IMG/VR virus record: IMGVR_UViG_3300042453_001967
Span: 27,966 to 91,965 of that record
Length of the DNA stretch: 64,000 bases
Strand: one strand, 5' to 3'
From: a virus
This document shows positions 52,570-61,496 of this stretch, piece after piece; position 1 is the first letter of the stretch; each line of letters begins with the position of its first letter. Position numbers and translations under genes: made by a program. A model generated the notes under the pieces. That model worked only from the letters and a program-made list of their open reading frames with translations. It had not been told where the DNA came from and ran no database searches.

Positions 52570-54315
52570 TTATCTTAAGGTGTCAAGACTAAATGTAGTC
52601 AATCCATTAACGTTGATTACACCAAAGTAACGGTTGTTAACCATTTTCTTCGCGTATCTTGTCATGATACCCTTAATCGGTGTAAAGTTGAATGGGTTAT
52701 ACATTGTAGGTGTCAATTGTAGTGGAACGTATGGTGCGTAAATGTAACCAGCGTCCAACAATGATTTACCTTTGTGACCGATGATAATCTTACCGGCTGG
52801 TAAGTATGGGTCACGGTAAACTTGGTAACGACCTGCCAATGAACCGATTTTCTCAATACCCATGTTGTATTGGTCTTGCTCAGGAGCCGCGTTTGAAACG
52901 TGGAAGTACTCCAAGTCATCAAATACTGCTGATACTTCAGAAGATACAACAATCCAGTTAGCCCCACCTCTTAAGGTAGTTTTGTGGATTTGAGCCGAGA
53001 TTTGGTTAATCTTGGTAACCAATGTTTGGTTCCAGTCTTTTTGGGTGTAACCTTGGAAAGGTGCGTTACCTGTAGCCCCATATTTCCATTCGTTGTAGTC
53101 CCACTTGGTGGTCCAAGCGGCACCTTTACGAATATCACGAAGAATTTCACGGTCAATTTCTGCCGCGATTTGTTCGGACAATAAAGCTGTTAATTCAGCC
53201 TCAGCGTCGATGTTGTGGAATGCACTTACGTCTTGTGCTAATTCAGGAGACCAGCTAGCTCTCAACTTTCTTTCAGTCACAGAAACTGTTACTGATTCAA
53301 GGTCGAAAGAAACTTCACCGATTTCTTCCTCAAATTCTAATGAGTTGTACTCTCTCCACGCAACAGTAATATTTGCAAGTGCCAAGTCGTTAGAAGAGAA
53401 ATCAGCACCGGTGTACCCTGAAGTATTAGTGTATGTTTCAACATCTACGTTTAAGTAAATAACACCTTCAGCATCACAAACGTTAAAATACTTACCGGTT
53501 CTACCTGTACCTTTACTTCCGTATTCTACGATACCTTTACCATATTTCTGTGTTACCACGTTGAAATTTTTAGCACCATTGTTTGTGGTAGTGTTACCAG
53601 CAATTGTTACAGTTAAAGAAGCCAAGAACTCTTCAGTATCCATTGGATGACCGTTAGGTCCTGCTAATTTTCCACCACCTTCATAAGTTGTGAAACCCGA
53701 AACGGCAATGATGAAACTTGATACACTAGCACCAGATAAAGCGGCTGCTGATGTACTTGCAGTTCCATTTGAGAAAGTCACAAACGCATGTGGGTTAGCG
53801 GTGACCGCCGCATACGAACCTTTAGAGTAATCAAACAAACCTGAAGTAACTGCATCGGTTTCAGAAGTCTCGTAAAAGCGGTCGTACAAGTTGATACCAG
53901 TATAACCAGTGTTAGGGTCAGTCAACGAACTTGGGAAACCATATGGTTGATAGTGGTCACCTGTTGCGTTAGATTGTCTTTCTTGAATTTTAGGTACAAA
54001 GTAGAACAATTTACCGATAGGTAGGTTCATCGCTTGTACAGATACGATGTCATTCGCCAACAATTTGGAGAATACACGTCTGATGATTGGGAATACAACA
54101 GTTTCAAATGAACCTGATGCATCAGCAACAGCCGCTTCGTTTATCAAATATGACGCTTGGTTTTCATATAATTGCGCGATATTATCTTTTTGATGACCGC
54201 CAAGACCCTCAAGGAATCCTAACTCATCCCATTTTTTAATGGTATCTTCTTTGATAACACGGAGGTGTTTTAATCCAATGTTACCAACCATACCTGATTC
54301 TAATAATGCTCCCAT
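52570..54315 (-). CDS. 23: Major capsid protein gp23
   Basis: 581 aa (T4 gp23 is 521). The precursor start is conserved (helical N-terminus, then LYENQASYLINE followed by AAVADASGSF). The expected gp21 cleavage rule (L/I-x-x-E) is met at E60-A61, so the mature protein would start AAVAD. The body has the HK97-fold landmarks of gp23: AAVADASGSFETVVFPIIRR, LASWSPELAQDVSAFH-like region (ASWSPELAQDVSAFHNIDAE), LTALLSEQIAAEIDREIL, GGANWIVVSSEVSAV and the closing YFGVINVNGLTTF. Codon use is less AT-rich than its neighbours, typical of a highly expressed gene. It is 33 bases after the scaffold gene and ends before a strong terminator. Confidence 0.95.
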   Translation of the reverse strand: MGALLESGMVGNIGLKHLRVIKEDTIKKWDELGFLEGLGGHQKDNIAQLYENQASYLINEAAVADASGSFETVVFPIIRRVFSKLLANDIVSVQAMNLPIGKLFYFVPKIQERQSNATGDHYQPYGFPSSLTDPNTGYTGINLYDRFYETSETDAVTSGLFDYSKGSYAAVTANPHAFVTFSNGTASTSAAALSGASVSSFIIAVSGFTTYEGGGKLAGPNGHPMDTEEFLASLTVTIAGNTTTNNGAKNFNVVTQKYGKGIVEYGSKGTGRTGKYFNVCDAEGVIYLNVDVETYTNTSGYTGADFSSNDLALANITVAWREYNSLEFEEEIGEVSFDLESVTVSVTERKLRASWSPELAQDVSAFHNIDAEAELTALLSEQIAAEIDREILRDIRKGAAWTTKWDYNEWKYGATGNAPFQGYTQKDWNQTLVTKINQISAQIHKTTLRGGANWIVVSSEVSAVFDDLEYFHVSNAAPEQDQYNMGIEKIGSLAGRYQVYRDPYLPAGKIIIGHKGKSLLDAGYIYAPYVPLQLTPTMYNPFNFTPIKGIMTRYAKKMVNNRYFGVINVNGLTTFSLDTLR

Positions 54316-54348: not shown

Positions 54349-55551
54349 TTATTTTAATTTTTGCATCAAATCTTTCATTCTTTTGAATTGTGGATTTTCA
54401 TAAGCCTTAGACTCGGACAATACATTCGTAGAAGAAGATGTTGGTGCGTGATTTATTTTTTCAACCACCGATTCGGTTACTGGTTTTTTTGTTTCCAACT
54501 CGGTTTTTATTGAACTGTATAAGTTCTTAGACTCTTTCAAGGTTGAGATTGAATCGAATCTTTTTAAGATATTTAATTTTTCTTGTTTTGTTGTTGAATG
54601 CTCGGTAAATAAACGAGTTGCATAGGCCAAATTAGCGTTAAAGACAGCAACTTCATTTAACTTATCTTTGAATAAGACTAACGCCTTTTTATATTCATCG
54701 TTTTGTTTTTTTAGTTTACTAACCTCTTCGTTAATTTCGTCTCTTTTGTTACCAGCCTTGTACACGTTTTTTGATTTTAAACCCCCATGGTAACCATAAC
54801 CCATTGTACGAGCGGATTCATCGACATCACCCTCAACTGGTTCTACATCTCCCTCCATTGCGTCTTCAGGTGACATGTCACCCTCATCTACATCATCAAG
54901 TTCAATTTCGTAAACAGTTTCATCGGACATCATTTCGTCTTCATCGACCGGCATTTCATCAGACATCATTTCGTCTTCATCGACCGGCATTTCATCAGAC
55001 ATCATTTCGTCTTCATCGACCGGCATTTCATCAGACATCATTTCGTCTTCATCTAATTGAATGATATACTCATCATCACCGTCAGATAACTCAATATGAT
55101 TATCATCTTTTTTGACAATTACACCATCATTAGGACCCATTGCTTTGAAAACTTTTAAAATTTCGTCTTCATCTGCGCCGGTCATATCTAATACATCATC
55201 ATCGGTGTCCATGTCGTCCATTGTTGGAGCCATGTCATCATCGGTGTCCATGTCGTCCATTGTTGGGGCCATGTCATCATCGGTATCTAATGAATCGATA
55301 TCTTTTGATGGTTCATCATCTTCATTATCTGGATTTTCTTCATCGCCAGTTTTTACTGGTACATCATCTGTATCCTCTTCAGAATCGGGTTGTTCGTCAA
55401 CCTCTTTCTCTTCTTCCAATGATTCTTTTAGCAAATCGTTCAGTTCCTGTTTCATTGTAGAAGCCAGTATACCTTTTGCGTTCGCTTTTACTGCTTCTTC
55501 AAGTGTTTGTACTTGAAGTAACGCTTGTTCTAAAATTGATTTGTTGCTCAT
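54349..55551 (-). CDS. Prohead core scaffold (gp22-like) with acidic repeats
   Basis: 400 aa. The N-terminal 45 residues are helical (SILEQALLQVQTLEEAVKAN). Then comes an extremely acidic region to about residue 260 with two repeat types: DEDEMMSDEMPV (12 aa, four copies, about 170-215) and a 13-residue unit MAPTMDDMDTDDD (twice, about 95-120). The C-terminal third is helical and charged (INEEVSKLKKQNDEYKKALV) and ends KRMKDLMQKLK. Position between protease and capsid genes and helical-acidic make-up fit the T4 gp22 scaffold, which is degraded by gp21 during head maturation; sites of form L-x-x-E or [IL]-x-x-E are frequent. T4 gp22 is 269 aa, so the acidic insert is extra. Confidence 0.75.
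   Translation of the reverse strand: MSNKSILEQALLQVQTLEEAVKANAKGILASTMKQELNDLLKESLEEEKEVDEQPDSEEDTDDVPVKTGDEENPDNEDDEPSKDIDSLDTDDDMAPTMDDMDTDDDMAPTMDDMDTDDDVLDMTGADEDEILKVFKAMGPNDGVIVKKDDNHIELSDGDDEYIIQLDEDEMMSDEMPVDEDEMMSDEMPVDEDEMMSDEMPVDEDEMMSDETVYEIELDDVDEGDMSPEDAMEGDVEPVEGDVDESARTMGYGYHGGLKSKNVYKAGNKRDEINEEVSKLKKQNDEYKKALVLFKDKLNEVAVFNANLAYATRLFTEHSTTKQEKLNILKRFDSISTLKESKNLYSSIKTELETKKPVTESVVEKINHAPTSSSTNVLSESKAYENPQFKRMKDLMQKLK
54936..55060 (-). repeat. 36-base in-gene tandem repeat of the scaffold
   Basis: Units begin at 54936, 54972, 55008 and 55044 and are nearly identical (CGTCTTCATCGACCGGCATT and on); the last diverges after 12 bases. They encode DEDEMMSDEMPV. Copy-number change would keep the frame. 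Confidence 0.85.
55201..55284 (-). repeat. 39-base in-gene tandem repeat of the scaffold
   Basis: Two copies starting at 55201 and 55240 (ATCGGTGTCCATGTCGTCCA and on), differing at one base (GGAGCC versus GGGGCC), and the start of a third at 55279. Encodes the MAPTMDDMDTDDD unit. Confidence 0.8.
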
Positions 55552-55630: not shown

Positions 55631-56314
55631 TTATTTTGATAAAAAACTATCCAATCTTGACATAAGATTTTTCATTTTATCAACGTCTTTTGGTTTTTCA
55701 TCCAATGACTCTTGATACTGCTCTCTGTCATTTATGTCTGAGAAAACATACGCTCCTGGGGTGCTTGGAGATGATACTAAATCAAAACAAACTAATTCAA
55801 AATCATCTTGAACGATATTTTGTCCCTTTACATTTTTTAATGAACCAACACCTCTTGATGATATACCAAGTGTTGCCCCATTCATAATTAACATTGCCGC
55901 TTGGTCTCCCTTTGTGCTTACGATACCCATTTTTTTCCATGCGGGTGAAGTAAAAAGTTTTATTTTACCCATTAATATTTTACCATCCCACCATGTCTCT
56001 AAAATTGAATGGGAAACCCTATCTAAATCAATTAAAGACGAACTTGGGTGATTTAATTCATTTAAAGCACCACCCTTTTTAATTAATGTTTGATATTTTT
56101 CGTTTTCTCTTTTTAATAAAAGTTCCGGATATATTCTACCATTTTTGTTTGGTGTATCATATTTTTGTAAAACAGCAAACAATATAATATCTTGAGAGAA
56201 ATCCATTTCTCTCATTTCAGAAATTATTTTCTTATTTTCTTCGTATGAAATATATCCAGCATCGTATTCTAAAAGAATACCTCTACCGGTATCATTAGGA
56301 CCCAATATCTTCAT
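55631..56314 (-). CDS. 21: Prohead core protease gp21
   Basis: 227 aa (T4 gp21 is 212). The serine protease signatures are present: catalytic His in ELNHP (H89) after LFAVLQKYDTPNKNGRIYP and catalytic Ser in GATLGISSRGVGS (about S152). The final segment KNLMSRLDSFLSK is similar to the scaffold end (KDLMQKLK), as is common because both are packed in the core. The enzyme cleaves capsid and core proteins after L/I-x-x-E sites. Its position next to scaffold, capsid and portal is the T4 order 20-21-22-23. A late promoter motif stands 9 bases upstream. Confidence 0.93.
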   Translation of the reverse strand: MKILGPNDTGRGILLEYDAGYISYEENKKIISEMREMDFSQDIILFAVLQKYDTPNKNGRIYPELLLKRENEKYQTLIKKGGALNELNHPSSSLIDLDRVSHSILETWWDGKILMGKIKLFTSPAWKKMGIVSTKGDQAAMLIMNGATLGISSRGVGSLKNVKGQNIVQDDFELVCFDLVSSPSTPGAYVFSDINDREQYQESLDEKPKDVDKMKNLMSRLDSFLSK

Positions 56315-56347: not shown

Positions 56348-56773
56348 TTAATTCTTTTTATCGAAGAAATTATAAAAAGTTTTGTCAACAAGTACTGTTT
56401 CGATTATGTCTTTTGATAGGTTTGCAATGTAATTTTTTATTTCTTTTGACCTTACATCAAAATGTTTACTAACATAAAGGGTTATTTCTAAATCCATAAA
56501 AGACCTTTTATTTAATTTAATTCCGTTTGTTTTTATGTCCAAATCAACAATACACTGTGGTTTGAAAAACTCGGAATTAAGTAAATAGATTTTATCTTTT
56601 ATTCTTTTTCTACTTTTATAAATTAATTTATCAAAATCTTGTTCATCCAACGTTGGTTGTATCCATGAGTTTAATTGTATGTAAATTGTTTTTAAATTTT
56701 TATAATCTACAGTTCCGTAACCTATTTTTACACTCTTGTGTGAACCAATTACTATAAATTTTCCTTTTTTCAT
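56348..56773 (-). CDS. Hypothetical head-region protein, 141 aa
   Basis: Not recognised with confidence. A basic alpha/beta protein: GKFIVIGSHKSVKIGYGTVDYKN-type opening, then LKTIYIQLNSWIQPT, KLIYKSRKRIKDKIYLLNSE, FFKPQCIVDLDIKTNGIKLN, KRSFMDLEITLYVSK and a final helix. Conserved-looking small proteins of this kind occur near prohead genes in related phages. It begins the protease-scaffold-capsid run and ends 34 bases before the protease; that spacing includes the protease promoter motif. A role in head assembly is inferred from place only. Confidence 0.5.
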   Translation of the reverse strand: MKKGKFIVIGSHKSVKIGYGTVDYKNLKTIYIQLNSWIQPTLDEQDFDKLIYKSRKRIKDKIYLLNSEFFKPQCIVDLDIKTNGIKLNKRSFMDLEITLYVSKHFDVRSKEIKNYIANLSKDIIETVLVDKTFYNFFDKKN

Positions 56774-56851
56774 TATTATTTATCATATATAATATTTTTA
56801 TGGTGTTTATAAAATATATGAAATAATGTTAATAATTTAAAATTTTTTTCG

Positions 56852-56859
56852 TATATTTT
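56852..56859 (+). promoter_or_regulatory. Bacteroidota-type -7 box for bS21
   Basis: TATATTTT, 13 bases before the ATG of the bS21 gene. No TTTG stands at the 19-base spacing, so the -33 part is missing or weak. A run of nine A precedes the start codon. Confidence 0.4.
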
Positions 56860-56872
56860 TAAAAAAAAAGTT

Positions 56873-57070
56873 ATGATAAAAATCAATGTAAGTAAAGAAA
56901 AAGGAATTGAATCCGCATTAAAAAAATATAAATACAGGGTTCAAAAAACAAGACAAAATGAACAATTAAGAGACAGAGAGGAGTTTGTGAAACCTTCCGT
57001 GGCTAAAAGAGATAAATTACTTAAAGCAATTTATAAACAAAAAATTAAAAGCAAAGAAGATAGGTCATAG
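56873..57070 (+). CDS. rpsU: Ribosomal protein bS21 homologue
   Basis: 65 aa, the same length as bacterial bS21. The family pattern is clear: INVSKEKGIESALKKYKYRV (first helix), QNEQLRDREEFVKPSVAKRD (middle, with the F-x-K-P-S-x-x-[RK]R motif) and KLLKAIYKQKIKSK. bS21 sits at the mRNA exit platform of the 30S subunit next to the anti-Shine-Dalgarno sequence. Phage copies are known and can replace the host protein. A tyrosine at position 54 is kept; in Flavobacteriia a bS21 tyrosine at that place helps hide the anti-Shine-Dalgarno. It is alone on the plus strand inside the minus-strand head block and overlaps the convergent 245 aa gene by 6 bases. Confidence 0.9.
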   Translation: MIKINVSKEKGIESALKKYKYRVQKTRQNEQLRDREEFVKPSVAKRDKLLKAIYKQKIKSKEDRS

Positions 57071-57802
57071 TAACCCATTCTTCAATTCAATAAGTTTATA
57101 ATAATCAAATTTTGTGGTGTCAGATTTATTTATTTCTGACATCACATTTTTTAATTTATCTTTTAACGTATCCTCACTCGATTCTTTAATCAAAGAGTCG
57201 ATTTTGTTAGTCAATTCCTTTTTAAGGTTTTTTGTTTCTTTTATTAATTCATCATTGGGCATTGAAACAATTTTATTAAATGTTTCTTTTTGTTCCTCAC
57301 TTAAAAAATCCGAATATTTTATATTAAAATTATTAACCAATACTGCATTCAACAGTGAATGATTTTCTATTTGAATTTCACTTGGTTTTTCATCTCGTTT
57401 TTTTTCCTTCAATAAATGTTCAATTAAATTTTCTCTAGCATCTATTTTTTTGGATATATTGTGTATAGTGTTTTCTTCCGAAAGAATATCTAAATTTTCA
57501 TACAAAGAATTTTTTTCAAACTCAACTTCTTTTAAATTCTTAGTGAAATTTTTCAAATCTTTCTTTATAGTTTTCATTTTTTCAATCAAAATAGGTTCGA
57601 TTGATTCCACATATAATTTGGCCTTATCTTTTGATGTGATGTTTAAATTTTCTATGTTTTCATAGAAAGTATACATTTCGGATAATGTTTTATTTGATGT
57701 GATTGATTTTATGGTATTTTTTAATTCCACTTTATTTTTTGATGTATATAAATCAGTTAACTTAGTTAACATTTTTAATTTAAATTCTCCAAAATTTGTC
57801 AT
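57065..57802 (-). CDS. Helical hypothetical protein downstream of the portal, 245 aa
   Basis: Almost wholly charged helix with heptad patterns (KMKTIKKDLKNFTKNLKEVE, KKIDARENLIEHLLKEKKRD, LIKETKNLKKELTNKIDSLI). A neutral stretch around 145-165 (LLNAVLVNNFNIKYSDFL) breaks it. Scaffold-like or prohead-core proteins (T4 gp67/gp68 role) are also small, helical and encoded beside the portal; this is the most plausible role but is not proven. It lies 4 bases after the portal gene and its 3' end overlaps bS21 by 6 bases. Confidence 0.55.
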   Translation of the reverse strand: MTNFGEFKLKMLTKLTDLYTSKNKVELKNTIKSITSNKTLSEMYTFYENIENLNITSKDKAKLYVESIEPILIEKMKTIKKDLKNFTKNLKEVEFEKNSLYENLDILSEENTIHNISKKIDARENLIEHLLKEKKRDEKPSEIQIENHSLLNAVLVNNFNIKYSDFLSEEQKETFNKIVSMPNDELIKETKNLKKELTNKIDSLIKESSEDTLKDKLKNVMSEINKSDTTKFDYYKLIELKNGLL

Positions 57803-57806
57803 TTGA

Positions 57807-59609
57807 TTATTGGTTTAGTATATCGTTTAATTTATTTTCTATTTCATAAATATTCTGTTGTGCTTTATTAATATCAAATAAATCTTCTAAATTGTTAGAT
57901 TCACCTAAAAAATTTGTTAATCTAATTTTTTTATTTTCACTTAGCGGAGCCTCACCACCGGCCGGCGGTGAAGGTGGTGTTGGTGGTGCTCCCATATCCA
58001 TACCCCCACCTGCTTCAGCACCTTCTGGTGATTGTGCTGCGGCCTCCCTCTCATTTTCGGGAATACCATATTTGGAATCGACCTCATCAAAAACACCCGA
58101 ACGTTTTATTACCATTTGAGTATTAGTTAATTCAAAACCAATCGCCCTTTCTAATCTTTGTTGTTGTAAATCTAAAACAACTTCACTATCACTCATACCC
58201 AAGATATTCTTTTTTGCCCATGTATGTGAAACGGGTAATATACCTATTTGAGATTGGTCGGAAGTGGCGTCTTTATATAAGAGAATTTTTTCTTTCCATT
58301 GTTCAATTCTTAATAAATCTGACTGAGCGGATGGGTTTGTTAAAGATAATGAAAAATTATTTAATTCATCTTCTAATCCAACTAAATACAAATGAATTAA
58401 AGCGATTTTATTTAACTCATGTATTAAAGATTTTTGAATTCTATTAATTGTTCTTGCGAACCTAATGTCCATTAGTGCTAATGTTTTACCATCACCAACA
58501 ACTTCTTCAAAACCCAAAAAGGCTTTTGGTATTCTTAGTGCGGCTAACATTTTTTTCTGAATATATTCAATATCCGCAATTTCTCCCAAATTTTGAGCAC
58601 CAGGTAATGTTTCAATTGGATTTGTTTGAGCCGGGTCACGAACAGGAATAAAATAATCTTGGTCTACCGCCATTTGATTATACCTCATATCAACTTGACC
58701 GTTTCTTGAATCAACAACTTGGTCCCTTTTAAATTTATTCGCAACTCTTTGTACATATGGTTCGATATCTTTGTCATCCATATTACCAACAAAAACTTTA
58801 AATACACGTCTTTCGGGTGCCCTCGTTGTTCTATAAATCAACATAGCATCTTCAGCAAGTAACAATTGTTTCCAAATCCTCCTGATTTTATCCAACATAG
58901 ATGTACCATAAGGAAGTTTTCTATCGTCACCTAATAGTCTAAAATGAGCAATTTCCCAAGACTGAAACTCCATTTCTTTATTTTTCCATTGAAATCTGAG
59001 TTCTCTACTTGGCATTTGCATAGTATCCATTTGATTAGGGGTTTTACTTTCCTTACCCTCTAATCTTTCAATCTCAATATTTGGTAATTGTTGACAACCA
59101 ATAATACCTTTTTCTGGGTCAACTTTTAAATAAACAAAATTGTCACCATATTTACACATACCTCTAGCCCACATTTGTAAATTAGTGTTTAAATCCAATC
59201 TGTTTACAAATAAATCTTCTAATGTTGATTTAATTCTATCGGATTCCGAAAAGATTGTTAGTAAGTTTCCCTTTTCAGATAATGTTGTAGATTCTTCAGC
59301 GTATATATCCAAAGCAGCTGAAATTTCAGGAGTGAACTCCATCGACTCAACATCATAATACATTGATAATCTGTTTGGTTCATAATAAACAGATTGGTTA
59401 TACAGTGATTGGTCAAGTTTAGAAAATTTATCAGCAATGTATTGAGTTTGTTGAGCCTGCAACATCGCCTTTTCATATTCTTCTCTACTACTCGTTTTTA
59501 AAATTTCTTCTTTATCGAATTTAAAAGATGGTGCTTCTTCAGGAGTTACTTTACCGGGAAAACCAAATATTTTTGTTAATCTTTGAAATACTGTTAAATT
59601 ATCAGCCAT
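57807..59609 (-). CDS. 20: Portal protein gp20
   Basis: 600 aa (T4 gp20 is 524). The typical gp20 segment is present: YYEPNRLSMYYDVESMEFTP then EISAALDIYAEEST, followed by LPNIEIERLEG and the helical wing (KLPYGTSMLDKIRRIWKQLL, AEDAMLIYRTTRAPERRVFK). The conserved DVGNMDDKDIEPYVQ-type turn (VGNMDDKDIEPYVQRVANKF) and the crown region with LAALRIPKAFLGFEE-like sequence (KKMLAALRIPKAFLGFEE) are also there. The C-terminal part has a Gly/Pro-rich stretch near 545-570. Twelve copies form the DNA entry vertex. Late promoter motif directly upstream. Confidence 0.95.
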   Translation of the reverse strand: MADNLTVFQRLTKIFGFPGKVTPEEAPSFKFDKEEILKTSSREEYEKAMLQAQQTQYIADKFSKLDQSLYNQSVYYEPNRLSMYYDVESMEFTPEISAALDIYAEESTTLSEKGNLLTIFSESDRIKSTLEDLFVNRLDLNTNLQMWARGMCKYGDNFVYLKVDPEKGIIGCQQLPNIEIERLEGKESKTPNQMDTMQMPSRELRFQWKNKEMEFQSWEIAHFRLLGDDRKLPYGTSMLDKIRRIWKQLLLAEDAMLIYRTTRAPERRVFKVFVGNMDDKDIEPYVQRVANKFKRDQVVDSRNGQVDMRYNQMAVDQDYFIPVRDPAQTNPIETLPGAQNLGEIADIEYIQKKMLAALRIPKAFLGFEEVVGDGKTLALMDIRFARTINRIQKSLIHELNKIALIHLYLVGLEDELNNFSLSLTNPSAQSDLLRIEQWKEKILLYKDATSDQSQIGILPVSHTWAKKNILGMSDSEVVLDLQQQRLERAIGFELTNTQMVIKRSGVFDEVDSKYGIPENEREAAAQSPEGAEAGGGMDMGAPPTPPSPPAGGEAPLSENKKIRLTNFLGESNNLEDLFDINKAQQNIYEIENKLNDILNQ

Positions 59610-59661: not shown

Positions 59662-61434
59662 TTAACGTTGTTTACCAAATAACCAAGAATATTGTTTATA
59701 TTGTTCTTTTGTTGCATTATTGTTTTGTTGAAAAATAGGATTACCATCCGATGACATTGAACCAATTTGGTCAAATGATGTTCCATATGAATAAAATGAT
59801 TTATTTGGTTCATATGTCCTCTCAGATATTGTCCACGATTCTAGCATCGCCTTATTTGCATTTTCATTTTTACTTAGTTGAGCAAAAGAAATATCACCAA
59901 CATATAGAGCCATAGACATACTCATGATAGCATCATCATGAGCACCTTTCATGTGGTCTGGTCTACCATTGATATAAACAAACGTATTTAATTCATTCAT
60001 TAATCTTGCGGACCTAACTTGAAACCCTTTTCTCAATTGTTCTTCAAACGCTGCCACAATTTGTGTTCTCTTATTATTGAAGTTAATACCGGGTATTTTT
60101 TCCATTGCTTTAGAATTATATTCCCAAATATTCTTTGTGTTAATACCATCAATATAGAGATTTTTGTAATTTAATTCTTGTAGTTTTCTTGATGTTGCAA
60201 CACCCATCCCACCAGTAATATCAACAACAATAAACGCTTCGTAAAGAACACCCCATTTATAAGCGATAGATGCTAAATCATCAGGCGGTATTTTACCAAT
60301 ATATTCTGCAACTTGTTCTCTTTCATCAAAATCAATAATGTTTATTGATGAAAAATCCTCACTATCACCTCTACTAACATCAACACCCATTATGTATTTA
60401 TGGCCTTGTATAGGTTCTTTCCATTGCCAAAAAGTACCTTGCATGTACTTTTCTTTTGGGTCCCTCAACATGTTTTTGACAATGTTATCTTGCACTTCTG
60501 TTGGAATCACACCATCCCCCGAACCAAGAAAATCACACTCCAATTCCTGAGCAATTTTTCTTCTATCAAATTTGAATTTTTTAGACATTGACTCAAACCA
60601 AGAAGATAAAGGTTTATATCCTTCCTCTTCATACTGTTTGTAATTTTCGATTTCAAAATCGGTCATTACAATCTCATCATCGTCATATTGTTCTCTATTT
60701 AACATATAGTGAACAATATCACTACATTTAACCCATCTTAAATCTTTTGTGTATCTCGGGTCTTTAAACCATCTTAAGTCAGTTATATGAAAATCGTTAA
60801 CACCTCTAATAGCTTGGTCGTATACACCGTAATAAATTGGGTCAAAACCATTTGGTGTGGAAATAAGAATAATCTTACCACCCGTAGACAATGATGCCAT
60901 AGATGCTGCCCAAAAATCTTCACCGGCCTCAATATATGCCGCTTCGTCAAAAATCAATATCGTTGGTGTGTAACCTCTTAACGCATCTGCAGATGTTGCC
61001 ACTGCTTTTACTTCACAACCGTTGTTTAATCTAAATCTACTTTCTGAATTTTTATCCGGTGAAAAACCAACATTAACCCAATCGGGCCATTGTTCAATAA
61101 ACGCCCTAATTTTGTTAGCCATTTCAACCGCAGTGTCTTTTTTGTTTGCTATTATCAATACCCTTTCAGGATTATCTTTTTTTGCTGTTTGAAGTTTTTT
61201 TGAAATCCAAGCAGCGGTAACCGTTGTTACACCAGCCTGTCTATATTTTCTCGTTATATTCTCATTGTATTTTTCGTAATCCTCTAATAATTGTATTTGG
61301 TCAGGAAATAACTCCAACGGAACGAATCTTTTTTGCGTATTATCGTAAGTTTGTAAATACGTTTTTAATGCATAAGGGGTGTCTTTGATAATTTTAGCAT
61401 ACTCCTTTAGTTGTTCTATTTTTTGATTACTCAT
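59662..61434 (-). CDS. 17: Terminase large subunit gp17
   Basis: 590 aa from the ATG at 61432-61434 (the frame extends upstream across the promoter motif). ATPase part: Walker A-like RQAGVTT (65-71), Walker B ILIFDEA (159-165, D163 E164) and the coupling motif KIILISTPNG. Nuclease part: GVDVSRGDSED (D352), FIVVDITGGMGVA (D405) and AHDDAIMSM (D500, D501), the three acidic sites of the RNase H-like nuclease. T4 gp17 is 610 aa. It packages DNA into the prohead through the portal encoded next to it. No small terminase with clear similarity is visible in the window. Confidence 0.96.
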   Translation of the reverse strand: MSNQKIEQLKEYAKIIKDTPYALKTYLQTYDNTQKRFVPLELFPDQIQLLEDYEKYNENITRKYRQAGVTTVTAAWISKKLQTAKKDNPERVLIIANKKDTAVEMANKIRAFIEQWPDWVNVGFSPDKNSESRFRLNNGCEVKAVATSADALRGYTPTILIFDEAAYIEAGEDFWAASMASLSTGGKIILISTPNGFDPIYYGVYDQAIRGVNDFHITDLRWFKDPRYTKDLRWVKCSDIVHYMLNREQYDDDEIVMTDFEIENYKQYEEEGYKPLSSWFESMSKKFKFDRRKIAQELECDFLGSGDGVIPTEVQDNIVKNMLRDPKEKYMQGTFWQWKEPIQGHKYIMGVDVSRGDSEDFSSINIIDFDEREQVAEYIGKIPPDDLASIAYKWGVLYEAFIVVDITGGMGVATSRKLQELNYKNLYIDGINTKNIWEYNSKAMEKIPGINFNNKRTQIVAAFEEQLRKGFQVRSARLMNELNTFVYINGRPDHMKGAHDDAIMSMSMALYVGDISFAQLSKNENANKAMLESWTISERTYEPNKSFYSYGTSFDQIGSMSSDGNPIFQQNNNATKEQYKQYSWLFGKQR

Positions 61435-61436
61435 AT

Positions 61437-61447
61437 ATATAAATATA
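61437..61447 (-). promoter_or_regulatory. Candidate phage late promoter for terminase
   Basis: Minus strand ATATTTATATA shortly before the terminase ATG. It directly follows the T tract of the terminator at 61.45 kb, so one transcript ends where the next starts. Confidence 0.5.
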
Positions 61448-61449
61448 AA

Positions 61450-61470
61450 AAAAGGGGACATAAGTCCCCC
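61450..61470 (-). terminator. Rho-independent terminator between the 442 aa gene and terminase
   Basis: Stem GGGGAC/GTCCCC (61454-61459 with 61464-61469), loop ATAA, and on the minus strand seven T after the stem. Nearly the same hairpin sequence as the terminator behind the capsid gene. Confidence 0.8.
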
Positions 61471-61496
61471 TTTCTTTTTTTAGTCATTTAAACGGA

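Follow-up and report, generated by a model that had tools for sequence, protein, structure and literature searches.

A phage bS21 gene with a conserved Tyr54 and without the strong Shine-Dalgarno sequence of Flavobacterium rpsU

We analyzed a 64,000-nucleotide stretch of the virus record IMGVR_UViG_3300042453_001967 (hereafter, the window), in which the plus-strand open reading frame at positions 56873-57070 encodes a 65-residue protein (MIKINVSKEKGIESALKKYKYRVQKTRQNEQLRDREEFVKPSVAKRDKLLKAIYKQKIKSKEDRS) that is the sole bS21 in the 91,965-base record. This ORF matches the Pfam Ribosomal_S21 family (PF01165) with 33.7 bits, above the cut-off of 27, and covers model positions 2-54 of 55, in agreement with the first-pass annotation, which had called the product a full-length bS21. 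In the PDB, bS21 chains are the top matches (9i5v, E 6e-10; F. johnsoniae 7jil chain z, E 4e-9), and gapless alignment to 7jil chain z places Tyr54 of the window protein (in KAIYKQK, with codon 54 at 57032-57034) on Tyr54 of the F. johnsoniae protein (in KAAYIQT), so that the tyrosine singled out in that annotation does lie at the equivalent position. Moreover, dN/dS is 0.05-0.12 relative to the four closest clade members (L003, L006, L008 and L012), which argues against a chance match, and about 0.1-0.3 relative to more distant relatives.

The bS21 gene lies on the strand opposite to a minus-strand block of head genes. Two conserved hypothetical genes, both on the minus strand, adjoin it in 12 of 12 related virus records: a convergent gene for a 245-residue protein (57065-57802), the 3' end of which overlaps that of the bS21 gene by 6 bases and the homologue of which is remote (24% identity) in two of the 12 records, and a divergent gene for a 141-residue protein (56348-56773). 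Beyond them, also on the minus strand, are genes encoding a portal protein of the T4 gp20 type (57807-59609; PF07230, 256 bits; phrog_213), the large terminase subunit TerL (59662-61434; PF03237; phrog_5989), a prohead protease of peptidase family S77 (55631-56314; PF03420; phrog_207) and a major capsid protein of the gp23 type (52570-54315; PF07068, 259 bits; phrog_138). The 400-residue hypothetical protein encoded between the protease and capsid genes (54349-55551, minus strand) contains the acidic repeats PVDEDEMMSDEM and DDMDTDDDMAPT and has no family match, but its position suggests a scaffold protein. Other genes in the window encode a tail sheath, tail tube, baseplate hub, helicase, DNA polymerase, dUTPase and PhoH, and mark the virus as a myovirus. 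Genes for tRNA-Pro(TGG) and tRNA-Asp(GTC) stand side by side at 367-525 on the minus strand. A search of the phage record for a bS18 or bS6 gene found none, so that these two partners of bS21 in the pocket that holds the 16S 3' tail would be supplied by the host.

Phages carrying bS21 are a published family, and the window bS21 is a further member of it; neither the tyrosine nor the substitution model is new. No other ribosomal protein is carried by phages nearly as often as bS21 (PMC9976891). Chen et al. 2022 (PMC9723584) described Bacteroidetes myoviruses, for which they gave the host group and proposed a model of ribosome substitution, in which bS21 is antisense between two hypothetical genes within the TerL/portal/protease/MCP region. 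In their set, Tyr54 is present in 54 of 61 proteins, with another aromatic residue in the remainder, and divergence from Bacteroidetes bS21 falls at positions 21, 23, 25 (as printed) and 28. The window resembles these phages in gene context, bS21 strand, Tyr54 and N-terminal helix divergence, with R21Y, F23V and T28Q at three of the listed positions; the Asp printed as residue 25 is residue 24 in our numbering and is replaced here as well (D24Q). The complete genomes of Chen et al. are 293-331 kb long, however, whereas the record analyzed here is a linear fragment of 91,965 bases. Spacer-like matches sought between 20 kb of the phage and 400 genomes of the Flavobacterium family gave weak hits only, and no host was found among them; ten regions around strong or spacer-like hits contain no repeated 20-mers, so that none of them lies in a CRISPR array.

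As part of comparing phage and host proteins, we assembled bS21 loci from viral contigs, from Flavobacterium genomes, and from the wider order Flavobacteriales. Residue 54 is aromatic in all 78 distinct virus-derived sequences (Tyr in 75, Phe in 2, His in 1), and Lys-40, Arg-46 and Ala-52 are invariant in both phage and host bS21. The N-terminal helix, by contrast, separates the two groups: position 23 is Val in 71 of 78 phage proteins versus Phe in 49 of 49 from Flavobacterium, position 27 is Lys or Arg in 77 of 78 versus Gly in 49 of 49, and position 28 is Gln in 73 of 78 versus Thr in 49 of 49. Lys or Arg at position 27 is nevertheless found in 12 of 65 bacterial bS21 proteins from the wider order. 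Relative to the host type, the window protein carries V29N and R30E in this helix in addition to R21Y, F23V, D24Q, G27R and T28Q, and positions 21, 23, 24 and 27-30 are, on the basis of these alignments, the candidates for discriminating between messages, if the protein does so at all. A FastTree tree places 76 of the 77 viral sequences on one side together with a single bacterial sequence (support 0.70), which is weak evidence given the roughly 60 columns in the alignment.

The sole viral sequence outside the phage side of this tree, L224, comes from a 72-kb contig filed as viral, and we considered whether it might represent a phage with a host-like Shine-Dalgarno (SD) sequence. This idea was rejected: L224 has the host-type diagnostic residues and branches with the hosts, its bS21 has His54 together with a TGAGA SD fitting the alternative anti-SD described for Chryseobacteria, and it is probably bacterial DNA. 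Separately, five bacterial bS21 loci without a strong SD (L401, L404, L405, L406 and L408, in genomes G092, G108, G085 and G052) branch beside the phage proteins. In G085, G092 and G108 these SD-poor genes are second or third copies, the main rpsU having a strong SD, and all five may be mobile-element or specialised copies.

What is new and testable in these results is the contrast in SD strength between the phage bS21 genes, which are SD-less, and rpsU of Flavobacterium, which has a strong SD. SD strength was taken as the pairing energy of the 25 bases before the start with the 16S tail AUCACCUCCUUUCU, or with UCUCA as the alternative tail. None of the 82 distinct phage bS21 starts has a strong SD (-5.1 to +2.7 kcal/mol); pairing with the alternative tail is never stronger than -3.1, and none of the starts reaches -10 with either tail. 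All 55 distinct Flavobacterium rpsU starts (80 loci), on the other hand, have an extended SD of -22.8 to -18.4 kcal/mol. Among 61 distinct main-copy rpsU genes of the wider order, the canonical tail gives -13 or lower for 10, and 16 reach -10 when either anti-SD is allowed; six of those 16 bear TGAGA, which agrees with the alternative anti-SD found in Chryseobacteria and their relatives (PMC8710568). The start region of the window gene (56848-56872, plus strand) has an energy of -1.0 kcal/mol and so falls outside the class of autoregulated Flavobacteriales rpsU genes, for which the SD lies below -13 kcal/mol. Chen et al. 2022 (PMC9723584) do not report the missing host-type SD, nor the TATTTAT element discussed below.

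This absence is shared by the genes of the window in general, as the first-pass annotation had proposed in describing phage genes that lack SD sequences and have A-rich starts. Only 7% of window genes reach -6 kcal/mol, versus 15% of random 25-mers drawn from the window, and A is raised upstream of their starts at positions -3 (58%), -6 (65%) and -11 (67%) relative to 40% further upstream. At least one of the cases that reach -6, the apparently strong SD before TerL (-15.4), was discarded because it is a terminator stem ahead of a mis-called ATG: the longer TerL ORF, to 61461, starts inside the stem of an intrinsic terminator (61447-61476, minus strand), which is followed directly by ATATTTATAT and the likely TerL start at an internal ATG (MSNQKIEQ). 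The lack of an SD before phage bS21 is therefore the phage default, the host gene being the unusual side of the contrast, and selection at bS21 is not required to account for it.

A possible promoter -10-like element, TATATTTT followed by an A-tract, lies just before the bS21 start (56852-56859, plus strand). Of 25 distinct upstream sequences from close relatives, 23 retain the pattern TAT[AC]TTT plus A-tract directly before the start, which counts in favour of a real bS21 transcript. When TATATTTNNAAAA was searched for as a window-wide motif, the 2 matches equalled chance expectation and the pattern was not enriched. The element in the window clade is a variant of TATTTAT, which itself occurs at several other phage bS21 genes. 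TATTTAT is found 11-31 bases before 20 of the 72 gene starts of the record, compared to a mean of 3.0 and a maximum of 7 in 300 shuffles and to 8 for its reverse complement; in related loci, not all of them independent, it precedes 66 of 190 ORFs versus 9 for the reverse complement. The motif, TATTTAT(A/T), is strand-specific and precedes the portal gene, the protease gene, the 54349-55551 gene and other head genes. TATTTAT is thus a candidate -10-like late promoter element, and if it has this role many messages would be leaderless or nearly so.

These elements are relevant to the expression of bS21, for which the published evidence is ambiguous as to strand. Chen et al. used Bowtie2 to map RNA and took base counts for each gene; strand is absent from their methods, as are the words "promoter" and "antisense" from their text, and the bS21 level in their data is nearly equal to that of the opposite-strand neighbor (PMC9723584). 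Transcripts that run through from the head genes could produce this pattern as well, so that these data do not establish sense expression of bS21, a caveat that matters to anyone using the published claim of late expression for bS21.

Two characterized systems bear on how the phage protein might work. The window bS21 belongs to the same protein family as the product of F. johnsoniae rpsU (PMC9976891), has the same Tyr54 and is expected to occupy the same place on the 30S platform, but the phage gene lacks the extended, autoregulating SD of the host gene and residues 21, 23, 24 and 27-30 differ. McNutt et al. 2023 (PMC9976891), who cite Chen et al., describe stacking of Tyr54 on A1534 and report that strong-SD messages are translated more when bS21 carries Y54A or lacks its C-terminus. 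They also report that ribosomes without bS21 read the exceptionally strong SD of host rpsU, which makes this gene autoregulated, and suggest that this autoregulation could replenish host bS21 during infection. The bS21 of Pelagibacter phage HTVC008M is likewise phage-encoded, and its entry into ribosomes has been demonstrated, although its host is not a member of the Bacteroidota and it was tested in E. coli only (PMC6375957). By analogy, the replacement of host bS21 envisaged in the first-pass annotation is plausible. With the pelagiphage protein, however, E. coli ribosomes retained about 5% of their activity (PMC6375957), and substitution can therefore be damaging outside the native host.

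We put at roughly 60% the probability that the gene is a functional bS21 of a Bacteroidota myovirus of the Chen et al. 2022 family that works in the following way. The phage bS21 would be made from its own gene during infection and would displace host bS21 from the 30S platform. The 3' tail of 16S rRNA would then be kept tucked away by Tyr54 together with the conserved C-terminal helix, leaving the ribosome with the normal Bacteroidota taste for SD-less, A-rich messages, those of the phage included. Finally, the SD-less start would untie phage bS21 synthesis from the feedback loop of host rpsU and, in a host with this loop, ribosomes carrying phage bS21 would leave host rpsU off. The phage copy, made without the SD sensor and keeping that sensor closed, would in loop-bearing hosts defeat the replenishment suggested by McNutt et al. 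This last step depends on the host having the SD loop, and may not apply in the many other Flavobacteriales without it. A bolder form of the same argument, which we regard as tentative and rather doubtful, makes bS21 a regulatory wedge: the SD-less, Tyr54-bearing copy would fill the ribosomes, the anti-SD would stay occluded, the host loop would sense a bS21-replete cell and keep rpsU off, and the takeover would reinforce itself.

The proposed mechanism differs from the suggestion, made when the gene was first annotated, that Tyr54 tilts ribosomes to phage messages. Bacteroidota host mRNAs are also SD-less and share the A-3/A-6 signals of the phage starts (PMC8710568), and in host ribosomes the anti-SD is hidden to begin with. 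As a result, a copy with Tyr54 leaves the ribosome in its host state, and the tyrosine alone cannot favour phage messages. If phage mRNA is preferred at all, the source would have to be the N-terminal helix, in which the phage and host proteins differ. Such a message-selecting variant, in which the divergent helix rather than Tyr54 makes phage-bS21 ribosomes prefer phage transcripts, is possible but on balance unlikely. Support for this idea is provided by positions 23, 27 and 28, nearly fixed in phages and differently fixed in Flavobacterium, and by the placement of the helix where mRNA would bind (Chen et al., PMC9723584). Phage and host starts are alike, however, being SD-less and A-rich at -3/-6, so that no sequence feature on which a preference could act is known, and the basic residue at position 27 recurs in bacteria of the wider order. 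The same consistent phage-specific residues suggest more than a plain copy and so weigh against a simpler role in supply or repair, in which the phage would top up an exchangeable ribosomal protein during heavy late synthesis, leaving message choice and host regulation unchanged. We consider this role improbable, although the residues that bind the platform are conserved, the protein is in other respects a typical bS21, and bS21 joins ribosomes late and is easily exchanged (PMC9976891, PMC6375957). Very improbable is a non-ribosomal role as a basic protein packaged in the virion or used in head assembly, its ribosomal fold merely inherited, since a protein that does not bind ribosomes would hardly be expected to keep Tyr54 and other C-terminal residues under purifying selection, even though the gene sits within the head-gene block and Chen et al. 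(PMC9723584) suggested possible packaging of bS21 in virions.

If the phage protein acts by displacing host bS21 and keeping the anti-SD occluded, the host message most directly affected by that occlusion is rpsU itself (PMC9976891). With regard to what phages gain from bS21, the SD contrast thus turns a vague notion of "ribosome hijack" into a specific question, namely, whether phage bS21 silences rpsU.
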